The notes under the pieces were generated by a model. That model did not search any database and had not been told where the DNA came from. It was given only the letters and a program-made list of their open reading frames with translations. Shown in pieces: positions 49,425 through 54,190 of a stretch of 64,000 nt of DNA (positions are counted from its first letter, which is position 1; every line of letters begins with the position of its first letter). The position numbers were made by a program, and so were the translations under genes. The DNA is from Paracoccus benzoatiresistens. GTDB lineage: Bacteria; Pseudomonadota; Alphaproteobacteria; Rhodobacterales; Rhodobacteraceae. The DNA lies in the NCBI RefSeq assembly GCF_026913015.1, contig NZ_JAPTYD010000008.1, forward strand, positions 1 to 64,000, given 5' to 3'.

Positions 49425-49552
49425 CAGTATCCGCCTCCCATTGAGGACTGTGCCCAAGTTGCCATGCCGGTGATATCCTCGCCGACGCCTGCCATTGTAT
49501 TGCATCCAGCCAGCATCATGCAGGCCAGAGCCAAGCCTATCACTGCTCTCAT
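49424..49552 (-). CDS. Entericidin-like small lipoprotein (42 residues)
   Basis: This tiny gene lies between yejA and the CsbD-like gene. It has a lipoprotein signal, RAVIGLALACMMLAGC, with lipobox LAGC, and then NTMAGVGEDITGMATWAQSS. The N-T-x-x-G-x-G-x-D-I core is the hallmark of entericidin EcnA/EcnB peptides, lipoproteins linked to stress and cell death in other bacteria. Its ATG overlaps the yejA stop (ATGA) and its TGA overlaps the next ATG (TGATG), so all three genes are translationally chained. There is no antidote-toxin pair; only one entericidin is seen. Confidence 0.85.
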   Translation of the reverse strand: MRAVIGLALACMMLAGCNTMAGVGEDITGMATWAQSSMGGGY

Positions 49553-51411
49553 TCCTCTGCCTCCTGCCACCACAGCTCGGGCATGAAGCCCGGCCAATCT
49601 CCGTAGAGTGGCATTGTTTGGGCAGGATATCGCAGGTCCGCGGCATGAGCCAGCCGCGAGACCGGCGAGAACCCCACCGGTACGACATAACGCCCGGCGG
49701 TCAGGATTCGATCCAAGGCTCGGACAGCGGCGGTGAAATCGGCGGCGTTTTGCGAGTTCACCATCGCCGCGATCACCGATTCGACGGCCGGGCTCTTCAT
49801 GCCCATCCAGTTGCGGCTGCCCGGCTGGTCCGCTGCGGCGGACCCCCAGTACAGCAACTGCTCGGTGCCCGGCGACAGCGACAGGGCGCGTTCATACCAG
49901 GTCACGTCGAACTGGAATTCGTTGGTCCGCTGAACGAACTGCGCCGAATCCAGCAAGGTGATGCGCGGCCGCATTCCCAGGTTCCGCAGCGCCTGGACAT
50001 AGATGTCCGCAATCTGCTGCGTCTCGGATGCAGTCCGCATGGCGGTGCCGGATTGATTCAGCAGGATCTCGAAGGCGAAGGGCCGGCCCTGGGCGTTCTG
50101 CAGGACGCCGTCGCGGACCGTCCAGCCCGCTTCCTCCAGCAGCTTGATGGCACGGCGCAGCCCTGCGCGATCCAGCGCCCGGTCCGATCCCTCGGGGAGC
50201 GCATAGCCTTCGATCGTACCGGGCGGCAGGTCGGCGGCAAAGGGCTGCAGCAGTTCGGCCTCGCGCCCGGCTGCCGGACCGGGCTGCATCGCCAGATCCG
50301 AATTCGCGAAATAGGAGGTGATGCGCCGGTCCTTGCCGCCATTCAGCGTCGCGTTGATGAAGCGGAAGTTGAAGGCCTCGATCATCGCCTGCCGGACGCG
50401 CCAGTCCGCAAACAGCGGATTGCGGGTGTTCATTACCAGCCCCATGATCCCCGACGGGCGGCCATGGGGGATCTCGGCCTTCAGGGCATCTCCGCGCTGC
50501 ATCAGGGGAAAATCGTACTCCTGTTCCCACTTCAGCGCGGACAACTCTCGCCAGACCGTGACCTCGCCTGCCTTGAACGCCTCGAACATGGCATTGGCAT
50601 CGCCGAAATAGTCATAGCGGATGGTGGCCAGGTTGTTGCGCCCCTGGTTCACCGGCAGATCCTTGCCCCAGTAATCAGGGTTCCGCCGGAAGGTGATGGA
50701 CCGGCCCGGATCCACGCGGTCAACCACGTAGGGACCCGATCCGACCGGCGCTTCCAGGCTGGAGGACGCGAAATCCTTCCCCTCCCATTGCGCCTTCTTC
50801 AGGACCGGACGCAGTCCCATCAGCATGGGCAGTTCGCGGTCGGCTTCCGTGAAGGTGATCCGCAGCCCGAGTTCGCCCGTCTGTTCGATCTTCGCAACTT
50901 TGGACCAGGCTGCCTGGTAACGCGGATGCCCCTGCGTTCCGAGCGTCTGATAGGACCAGATCACATCCTCGACAGTGACCGGGCTGCCGTCGGAAAAGTG
51001 GGCTTCGGGGCGCAGGGTGAATTCGACCCATGAACGGTCCGGAGCCGTCTCGACCGACTGGGCCAGAAGACCGTAAAGGGTGAAGGGCTCGTCAAGGCTG
51101 CGATACATCAGCGTCTCGGCCACATGGATGCCGACGCCCCATGCTGCATTGCCTTTCAGCACCCAAGGGTTCAGAGAGTCGAATCCCCCAGGTTCCGCCA
51201 AACGAATCACTCCGCCCTGCGGCGCGTCGGGATTCACATAAGGAAGGGCCGTGAATCCCTCGGATAGCGCCGGTTCGCCATACATGGCAAGGGCGTGCGC
51301 GGCTTCGGCAGGACCTGAAAGCGGCATAGATGCAACACCTGAAAAAGCCCCAAAAATCAGGCACAAGGCGCGCAGAGTCGCGGAATTGTTAAGGTTTCTT
51401 AAGATTTTCAT
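49549..51411 (-). CDS. YejA-like periplasmic oligopeptide-binding protein
   Basis: The 620-residue family 5 solute-binding protein has a signal peptide of about 37 residues ending around GPAEAAHA. Its opening ALAMYGEPALSEGFTALPYVNP and GGFDSLNPWVLKG are typical of YejA, the binding protein of the microcin C/peptide importer YejABEF. FTLRPEAHFSDGSPVTVEDV and GSGPYVV are family 5 hallmarks. No permease or ATPase genes follow; instead the entericidin-like and CsbD-like genes do. So it may be an orphan binding protein, or the yejBEF genes are elsewhere. Control is from the promoter at 51447-51475. Confidence 0.9.
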   Translation of the reverse strand: MKILRNLNNSATLRALCLIFGAFSGVASMPLSGPAEAAHALAMYGEPALSEGFTALPYVNPDAPQGGVIRLAEPGGFDSLNPWVLKGNAAWGVGIHVAETLMYRSLDEPFTLYGLLAQSVETAPDRSWVEFTLRPEAHFSDGSPVTVEDVIWSYQTLGTQGHPRYQAAWSKVAKIEQTGELGLRITFTEADRELPMLMGLRPVLKKAQWEGKDFASSSLEAPVGSGPYVVDRVDPGRSITFRRNPDYWGKDLPVNQGRNNLATIRYDYFGDANAMFEAFKAGEVTVWRELSALKWEQEYDFPLMQRGDALKAEIPHGRPSGIMGLVMNTRNPLFADWRVRQAMIEAFNFRFINATLNGGKDRRITSYFANSDLAMQPGPAAGREAELLQPFAADLPPGTIEGYALPEGSDRALDRAGLRRAIKLLEEAGWTVRDGVLQNAQGRPFAFEILLNQSGTAMRTASETQQIADIYVQALRNLGMRPRITLLDSAQFVQRTNEFQFDVTWYERALSLSPGTEQLLYWGSAAADQPGSRNWMGMKSPAVESVIAAMVNSQNAADFTAAVRALDRILTAGRYVVPVGFSPVSRLAHAADLRYPAQTMPLYGDWPGFMPELWWQEAEE

Positions 51412-51446
51412 CGCCCGAGTGCCCGTTTTTATTCTTTTCGATACAA

Positions 51447-51475
51447 ATTCAACTGACTCGACCGAAGATCGTCAA
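51447..51475 (-). promoter_or_regulatory. Promoter of the yejA-entericidin-csbD operon
   Basis: On the minus strand TTGACG (51475-51470) and TTGAAT (51452-51447) are exactly 17 bases apart. Transcription would begin near 51440, giving a leader of about 30 bases. This is a sigma-70 pattern, not the EcfG general-stress one. Confidence 0.55.
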
Positions 51476-51495
51476 TGGCAGGTGAGACTTATTCG

Positions 51496-51524
51496 TTGGA
51501 CTCTGGCAGGCTTTGGCGTATAAA
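51496..51524 (+). promoter_or_regulatory. Promoter of the structured RNA upstream of bdhA
   Basis: TTGGAC (51496-51501) and TATAAA (51519-51524) lie 17 bases apart on the plus strand, with the -10 extended to TATAAAT. It points toward bdhA and would start transcription near 51531. Confidence 0.6.
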
Positions 51525-51530
51525 TAGCTT

Positions 51531-51605
51531 ACTGCTCGATAGGTTTCTTGCCTGTATGAAACCTGCCTCATGACTAGCGCCCGCCTTGTGCGGGCGTTTT
51601 TTTTT
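51531..51605 (+). ncRNA. Candidate small RNA or attenuating leader of bdhA
   Basis: Between the predicted start near 51531 and the end of a nine-T run at 51605 lies a transcript of about 75 nt without an upstream plus-strand gene. It has two parts. A first hairpin has AGGTTTC (51541-51547) paired with GAAACCT (51558-51564). A strong intrinsic terminator follows at 51578-51605. Because bdhA begins only 72 bases further on the same strand, it may be an independent small RNA or a leader in which the terminator is conditionally read through. No coding capacity fits within it. Confidence 0.55.
51578..51605 (+). terminator. Strong intrinsic terminator upstream of bdhA
   Basis: CGCCCGC (51578-51584) pairs with GCGGGCG (51590-51596) over a five-base loop and is followed by nine T residues. 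No plus-strand protein gene lies between it and the minus-strand yejA start, so it must end a non-coding transcript or act inside the bdhA leader. Confidence 0.9.
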
Positions 51606-51676
51606 GCCCATGCTGCACCTGCAAAGACGGGTTCTGGTCCGGTTCGGCCGGATACAGGCAGCAGCGTGGGGGTGCG

Positions 51677-52459
51677 ATGTTCAAAAGATTTCTGAGCGGT
51701 AAGACAGCAATCGTGACCGGTTCTAACTCCGGCATCGGGCTGGGGGTGGCGCGTCAACTGGCCAAGGCAGGCGCCGATCTGGTCCTGAACAGCTTCACCG
51801 ACCGTCCCGAGGACCATCAGATTGCCCAGAATCTGGCTGAGGAACATGGCGTAACTGTCCGGTATATAAAGGCAGATATGTCGAAGGCCGACGAATGCCG
51901 CGACTTGGTCCGGCAGGCTGGCCGCTGCGACATCCTGGTCAACAATGCGGGCATCCAGCATGTAGCGCCCATCCCCGACTTCCCGGTCGAAAAGTGGGAT
52001 GCGATCATCGCGATCAACCTGACCTCGGCCTTCCACACCACCGCTGCGGCACTGCCCATGATGCGCGAGGCAGGTTGGGGACGGATCGTCAACATCGCCT
52101 CGGCCCATGGCCTGACTGCCAGCGCCTTCAAATCGGCCTATGTCGCGGCCAAGCACGGGCTTGTCGGCTTTACCAAAGTGACGGCGCTCGAGACGGCGAG
52201 GGAATCGATTACCTGCAACGCCATTTGCCCCGGCTATGTCCTGACCCCTCTGGTCGAGGCGCAGATCCCCGACACGATGAAGGAATACAACATGACGCGC
52301 GAGGAGGTGATCCGGAACGTCATGCTGGAACGCCAGCCCTCCAAGGAATTCGCGACGGTCGAGCAGATGGGCGACACGGCCGTCTTCCTGTGCAGCGATG
52401 CGGCAGCGCAGATCACCGGCACCGCGATCAGCGTGGATGGGGGCTGGACGGCCCTGTAA
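51677..52459 (+). CDS. bdhA: 3-Hydroxybutyrate dehydrogenase
   Basis: BdhA oxidises 3-hydroxybutyrate to acetoacetate with NAD, the exit step from stored polyhydroxybutyrate. The 260-residue SDR protein has TGSNSGIGLGVARQLAKAGA, NNAGIQHVAPIPDFP, catalytic YVAAKHGLVGFTK and the BDH-type VLTPLVEAQIPD substrate loop. The NNAGIQHV...F motif separates BDH from generic SDR. Start ATG 51677 follows GTGGGGGTGCG. The gene sits behind the structured RNA. Confidence 0.94.
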   Translation: MFKRFLSGKTAIVTGSNSGIGLGVARQLAKAGADLVLNSFTDRPEDHQIAQNLAEEHGVTVRYIKADMSKADECRDLVRQAGRCDILVNNAGIQHVAPIPDFPVEKWDAIIAINLTSAFHTTAAALPMMREAGWGRIVNIASAHGLTASAFKSAYVAAKHGLVGFTKVTALETARESITCNAICPGYVLTPLVEAQIPDTMKEYNMTREEVIRNVMLERQPSKEFATVEQMGDTAVFLCSDAAAQITGTAISVDGGWTAL

Positions 52460-52493
52460 GCCACGAACGCCGCTCGTCGGGGCCGGACATCGA

Positions 52494-52598
52494 TCAGGCC
52501 AGCGCGTCCTTGACGGCGCGCGGGTCCCAGTCGGACAGGCTCTTCGCCGCATCCTGGCCCGGCCGAACTGCAGTTCCTTTTGATAAAGCCGCATAGGG
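52494..52598 (-). other. Possible gene remnant between bdhA and the aminotransferase gene
   Basis: On the minus strand a frame ending at TGA 52494 reads PYAALSKGTAVRPGQDAAKS, then LSDWDPRAVKDALA before the stop. This looks more like a real protein C-terminus than chance sequence, but its upstream part would lie within the aminotransferase gene in another frame and no start is visible. It may be the end of a lost gene or a coincidence. Confidence 0.2.
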
Positions 52599-52599
52599 G

Positions 52600-54190
<1,591 letters not shown>

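Follow-up and report, generated by a model that had tools for sequence, protein, structure and literature searches.

We describe a small RNA (sRNA) gene of Paracoccus benzoatiresistens that is very likely the Paracoccus orthologue of StsR, an sRNA (formerly RSs0827) known from Rhodobacter (Cereibacter) sphaeroides, where it contributes to slowing division when the cells are stressed. The assignment is based on the length of the RNA, on its predicted partner and on its occurrence at the same locus in Cereibacter johrii, StsR itself being compared by its description and not by its sequence. By sequence comparison we document the structure of the gene, its conservation across the family Rhodobacteraceae, its synteny and its complementarity to a site in the 5' leader of mraZ, the leader of the dcw (division and cell wall) genes.

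The sRNA gene and its conserved elements

The window analysed here is a stretch of 64,000 nucleotides, positions 1 to 64,000 of contig NZ_JAPTYD010000008.1. Within it, positions 51531–51605 are, judged from sequence and comparison, a free-standing small RNA gene, with the following elements:

51496..51501, + strand: -35 element TTGGAC, read from the sequence; TTGG at -35 in 121/123 genus loci and 39/44 loci of other genera
51519..51524, + strand: -10 element TATAAA, read from the sequence; TATA at -12 in 121/123 genus loci and 42/44 loci of other genera
51531..51605, + strand: gene of the sRNA (about 75 nt), a predicted orthologue of StsR; based on structure, fold and the genus and family searches
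51531..51570, + strand: invariant 40-nt core; based on identity across all loci read
51540..51565, + strand: hairpin 1 (8 pairs, 10-nt loop) of the predicted fold; 8/8 pairs invariant in 44 distinct sequences
51576..51605, + strand: intrinsic terminator, stem-loop 51576–51598 and a run of nine T at 51597–51605; based on fold, terminator scan and covariation

The original prediction for this locus had proposed a structured transcript with a good promoter, a 7-bp first hairpin and a terminator, being either an unannotated small RNA or a leader of bdhA. Its coordinates, its TTGGAC-17-TATAAA arrangement and its nine-T terminator all agree with the sequence, and the first hairpin is present as well, with 8 pairs once the outer U-G is counted. 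In this hairpin, positions 51540–51547 pair with 51558–51565 around a loop at 51548–51557, the U-G being the outermost pair. The 5' end at 51531 was placed from the promoter and from the point where invariance begins.

The TTGG and TATA of the promoter are kept in 121 of 123 genus loci, as is the 17-base spacer between the two elements (of the 124 genus loci, L055 is not counted here because the bases upstream of its sRNA are masked). By sigma-70 standards it is not a good promoter, TTGGAC matching TTGACA at 3/6 positions, and a sigma-70 consensus scan of 50500–52600 listed no promoter. The predicted fold of the sRNA has an energy of -25.0 kcal/mol (z -3.50), which was equalled by 1 of 200 shuffles. 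A scan of the region for terminator-like sites returned three, two of which are the sRNA terminator, against a shuffle mean of 1.8, so that the terminator by itself is not beyond chance. We regard the unit as real because it is conserved: in the spacing of its promoter, in its 124/124 identical cores and in the covariation of its terminator, where both sides changed in 6/9 pairs. The original prediction had named compensatory base changes in the two hairpins as a check; the terminator provides them, while hairpin 1 gives no verdict, since it never varies among the 44 distinct sequences. Of the two options first proposed, the unannotated small RNA is the one that the conserved core, the promoter and the terminator covariation support. 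Rfam gave no match in the window at gathering thresholds, and a permissive Rfam search of 51400–51700 gave 14 matches, every one under its gathering score.

Conservation in the genus, the family and the class

A DNA search found strong matches to the sRNA in 124/125 genus genomes (E 5.4e-24 or better), the lone exception being a genome that is 71% complete (G103, best E 1.37). All 124 genus loci share the same first 40 nt, as do 44/44 loci read from other genera; the latter come from genomes chosen as best-scoring, as multi-hit or as named and are not a random draw, weaker matches such as G177 and G350 having been left out, so that 44/44 may flatter the invariance. From 33 distinct genus sequences we built a covariance model, which at E<=0.1 recognised 292 of the 295 family genomes, 289 of them at E<=1e-14; three matches are weak (G256, G270 and G359, E 0.002 to 0.017), and the model missed three of the 295 genomes (G156, G278 and G289). 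Among 289 sampled genomes of the class, only four score at least 92 bits, all belonging to the same family, and 12 others score 25–34 bits. Further weak matches to the model (19–32 bits) were seen in 13 of 14 genomes inspected, the P. benzoatiresistens genome being the exception; we presume that these are matches to the terminator.

In some Paracoccus the sRNA lies on a replicon of 1.5–2.2 Mb that is filed as a plasmid (4 records). Locus regions in such records are NZ_CP035287.1 211985–217072 (L480) and NZ_CP038206.1 50670–55757 (L481); the two plasmid records read at the locus carry two annotated features per whole record, which makes the missing sRNA annotation there uninformative.

Immediately before the -35 element, loci of other genera show a conserved CAAACTTTTAG block (L072–L111 without L078 and L101; L208–L213), and AAACTT stands before the -35 in 39/44 of the other-genus loci and 47/123 of the genus loci. 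The block is possibly an activator site or an UP element.

The sRNA is probably not a leader of bdhA

The gene is flanked by two protein-coding genes:

49549..51411, - strand: extracellular solute-binding protein (SBP) gene, divergent; SBP family matches, all under cut-offs
51677..52459, + strand: bdhA, 3-hydroxybutyrate dehydrogenase, a neighbour outside the sRNA unit; TIGR01963, 376.6 bits against a cut-off of 307.05

The SBP gene is a stable neighbour, found 112–131 bp from the sRNA in 123/124 genus loci; the remaining locus is L055, with its masked upstream bases. The position of bdhA bears on the second option of the original prediction, namely that the transcript is a leader through which attenuation would switch bdhA, for example with the carbon storage state. 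The terminator would then be a conditional attenuator, and bdhA would be expressed by read-through. In agreement with such a leader, bdhA lies downstream on the same strand in 116/124 genus loci (39–1349 bp, median 104.5 bp), and where the gap is shortest (at least 39 bp) a promoter of bdhA's own would hardly fit in. However, bdhA is 709–1349 bp away in 13/124 loci and was not found in 8/124 (2 at a contig edge, 6 with 1.5–3.8 kb of downstream DNA searched), the sRNA core being unchanged in both groups, and synteny over the 124 genus loci revealed no fixed linkage of the sRNA to bdhA. In addition, no base of hairpin 1 is also part of the terminator in the predicted fold, so that no alternative antiterminator is apparent, and a conserved complementary site exists elsewhere, in the mraZ leader. 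Altogether, control of bdhA by attenuation is disfavoured by the variable distance, by the loci where bdhA was not found and by the complement in the mraZ leader; the sRNA is probably not a bdhA leader, and we consider the leader reading very unlikely.

A complementary site in the mraZ leader

The mraZ leader emerged unprompted from the secondary matches of the genus DNA search, in which a 20-base stretch of the transcript recurs in several genomes. The part of the sRNA that faces it is the following:

51549..51560, + strand: predicted seed, TGCCTGTATGAA, from the loop and the beginning of the 3' arm; complement to the mraZ leader and UpsM

A matching mraZ leader is present in 125/125 genus genomes, and the complement of the loop, ATACAGGC, occurs in 117 of these 125 leaders. 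In leaders of other genera it was found on the mraZ sense strand in 29/30 and on the opposite strand in 0/30. The genus leaders were gathered by similarity to one leader, so that conservation of the site partly reflects conservation of the leader; those of the 30 other genomes were collected via the MraZ family. When 8-mers were slid along the 40-nt core, a single sharp peak appeared: the complements of the windows starting at 19–23 were found in 108–117 of the 125 genus leaders, and none of the remaining 28 windows had its complement in more than 30, either strand being accepted in these counts and the strand being resolved for the 30 other genomes. The longest perfect complement in 60 leader loci (30 of the 125 genus leaders and the 30 others) measures 11–18 nt on the mraZ strand against 7–11 nt on the opposite strand, two ranges that touch. 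The full 18-nt complement is present in 4/125 genus leaders and 7/30 others; a count of the site that allowed up to 4 edits gave 0 edits in 4 genus leaders, 1 in 81, 2 in 32, 3 in 7 and 4 in 1. The outer target half GCAGGTTT is retained in 11/125 genus leaders.

In P. benzoatiresistens itself the leader lies on another contig than the sRNA (G000:C33:12337-12599), in front of a gene that matches MraZ with 49.4 bits (cut-off 23). It carries a 13-nt perfect complement, and the duplex needs a one-base bulge, which is why a search of this genome with a 22-base stretch of the sRNA, at up to 3 mismatches, returned the sRNA itself only. The predicted gain from co-folding is 15.0 kcal/mol in this genome and 15.1 kcal/mol in Cereibacter johrii, with hairpin 1 opening. 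Shuffling of whole-duplex energies, performed for 54 of the 125 leaders, gave 0/200 shuffles as good in 21 leaders and at most 2 in 35, and is not decisive; the argument is therefore carried by the complement-length and sliding 8-mer tests.

Probable identity with StsR

The StsR of R. sphaeroides measures 72 nt and is under the control of RpoHI/RpoHII (PMC8307010; PMC11354728). It is reported to bind UpsM as well as the 5' UTR of dcw, and to promote cleavage by RNase E of the RNA that it binds, which refolds (PMC8307010; PMC11354728), and a strain without StsR reaches a higher density in stationary phase (PMC8307010; PMC11354728; PMC8625941). UpsM is the 206-nt product of a 268-nt mraZ leader, a type of leader that PMC5089854 describes as exclusive to Rhodobacteraceae. 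The P. benzoatiresistens RNA resembles StsR in several respects: it is a short sRNA (about 75 nt against 72 nt) to which the sequence assigns its own promoter and terminator, and it is complementary to the mraZ leader, the source of UpsM in R. sphaeroides (117/125 genus leaders, 29/30 others, 13 nt in its own genome), UpsM, which comes from the dcw leader, being its predicted partner. In Cereibacter johrii, a relative of R. sphaeroides, the sRNA has bdhA on one side and the SBP gene on the other, its 40-nt core is identical, and the mraZ leader of that species holds a 12-nt complement to it. We know of no difference from StsR. An 84-nt RNA-seq peak of Paracoccus denitrificans, 'Intergenic 134', is described in PMC5107571 as lying in the same context as a putative sRNA of R. 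sphaeroides, and is a candidate for the counterpart in that species.

One could also suppose that this is a conserved sRNA with another main job, to which the mraZ complementarity is secondary. All 40 nt of the core are invariant and no more than about 12 lie opposite the conserved site of the leader, as such a reading would have it, but an sRNA of the same size and with the same partner is reported to act on UpsM in R. sphaeroides (PMC8307010; PMC11354728), and we judge a different main function to be highly improbable.

The promoter was compared with the features that PMC3441632 reports for RpoH promoters, which are TTG in the -35 element, T-13, A-12, T-11, C-37, C-14 and T-9. The promoter in the window has the TTG, T-13, A-12 and T-11, and lacks C-37, C-14 and T-9; a sigma-70 -10 element would have a similar appearance. 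CTTGG, which supplies the C-37, is found in 60/123 genus loci and 40/44 loci of other genera. With four of these features shared and three lacking, RpoH control of the sRNA is plausible.

Relation to aR8 and a possible operator of bdhA

The general plan of the sRNA, with its size, a weak 5' hairpin, an unpaired stretch and a terminator, is also that of the alphaproteobacterial aR8 family (MmgR, SisA–D; RF00519), membership of which would imply a link to polyhydroxybutyrate. The sRNA scores 20.6 bits with RF00519, which is weak and well under the 41-bit cut-off; two further weak matches (27.4 and 26.1 bits) fall on the sRNA locus in G024 and G042, and the similarity of the region preceding the terminator was equalled by 26/1000 shuffles for the genus form and 34/1000 for the other form. 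However, the defining core UUUCCUCCCU, as described in PMC12559287, is missing from 51531–51605, and in all four genomes that list both RNAs (G125, G180, G263 and G269) aR8 and the sRNA are at different places. With a score below the cut-off, no UUUCCUCCCU core and separate loci, we rejected aR8 membership, which we hold to be exceedingly improbable; a distant common origin of the two RNAs is conceivable. According to PMC12559287, aR8 is present in all Alphaproteobacteria except Rickettsiales. Here it was above the cut-off in 0/19 genus genomes searched and in only 15/149 Rhodobacteraceae genomes, the larger search having used stricter filters, and aR8 may have been lost or have diverged in many Rhodobacteraceae.

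Outside the sRNA, the gap before bdhA holds one more element:

51610..51625, + strand: operator-like element ATGCTGCACCTGCAAA, between the terminator and bdhA; based on pattern counts

With 2 mismatches allowed, ATGCTGCACCTGCAAA matches the window once, where 2.3 matches are expected, which is not above chance. A looser form of it is found in the gap at 47/122 genus loci and 13/44 others, and in 0 of the upstream control stretches; in the P. benzoatiresistens genome the pattern occurs at 16 places with at most 1 mismatch, and its reversed form at 1. Of the other places in this genome, C11:15255 precedes a patatin-like gene and C91:31824 an acyl-CoA synthetase-like gene, and an exact copy lies beside a peptidyl-prolyl isomerase-like gene (C44:12933), these gene names being our reading of the translations. 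The PhaR box is likewise TGC-rich, and the TGC-N4-GCA spacing of ATGCTGCACCTGCAAA differs from that of the R. sphaeroides box CTGCNNNGCAG given in PMC12542648. Judging by this pattern, ATGCTGCACCTGCAAA is a possible PhaR site with unusual spacing. If so, the suspected storage link would belong to the control of bdhA itself and not to that of the sRNA.

Discussion

We propose that the sRNA acts in the manner of StsR. Its own promoter, probably of a stress type, would produce the 75-nt RNA, a transcription step that we infer for P. benzoatiresistens. Hairpin 1 has a 10-nt loop, UUGCCUGUAU, which is predicted to form a duplex with a AUACAGGC-containing site in the long mraZ/dcw 5' leader, and would pair with the same site in UpsM, an sRNA whose end lies inside this leader. 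Pairing would then extend into the 3' arm and open hairpin 1. If events follow those in R. sphaeroides, the leader would refold and expose an RNase E site, and dcw expression would go down in stress or stationary phase. For the Paracoccus sRNA, RpoH control and the Hfq and RNase E steps are likewise carried over from the R. sphaeroides model.

That 40 bases are invariant and only about 12 of them face the conserved target site is a puzzle. In a wider reading, which we put forward as speculative and think rather unlikely as a whole, the switch by which StsR and UpsM connect stress to division would be a frozen, near-universal circuit of the family, the 5' end and both arms locking the 40-nt block through further conserved RNA or protein partners; in species whose bdhA begins no more than about 40–75 bp downstream, read-through may tie the breakdown of the storage polymer to the sRNA promoter.

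The locus very probably holds the orthologue of a known regulatory RNA, whose target site is now mapped across the family. This gives a name to an RNA gene of a genus that serves in denitrification research, and places the likely seed in the loop of hairpin 1, where it is amenable to direct mutation. The prediction that follows is that a stress sRNA would restrain the cell division genes in nearly all Rhodobacteraceae, beyond one model species.
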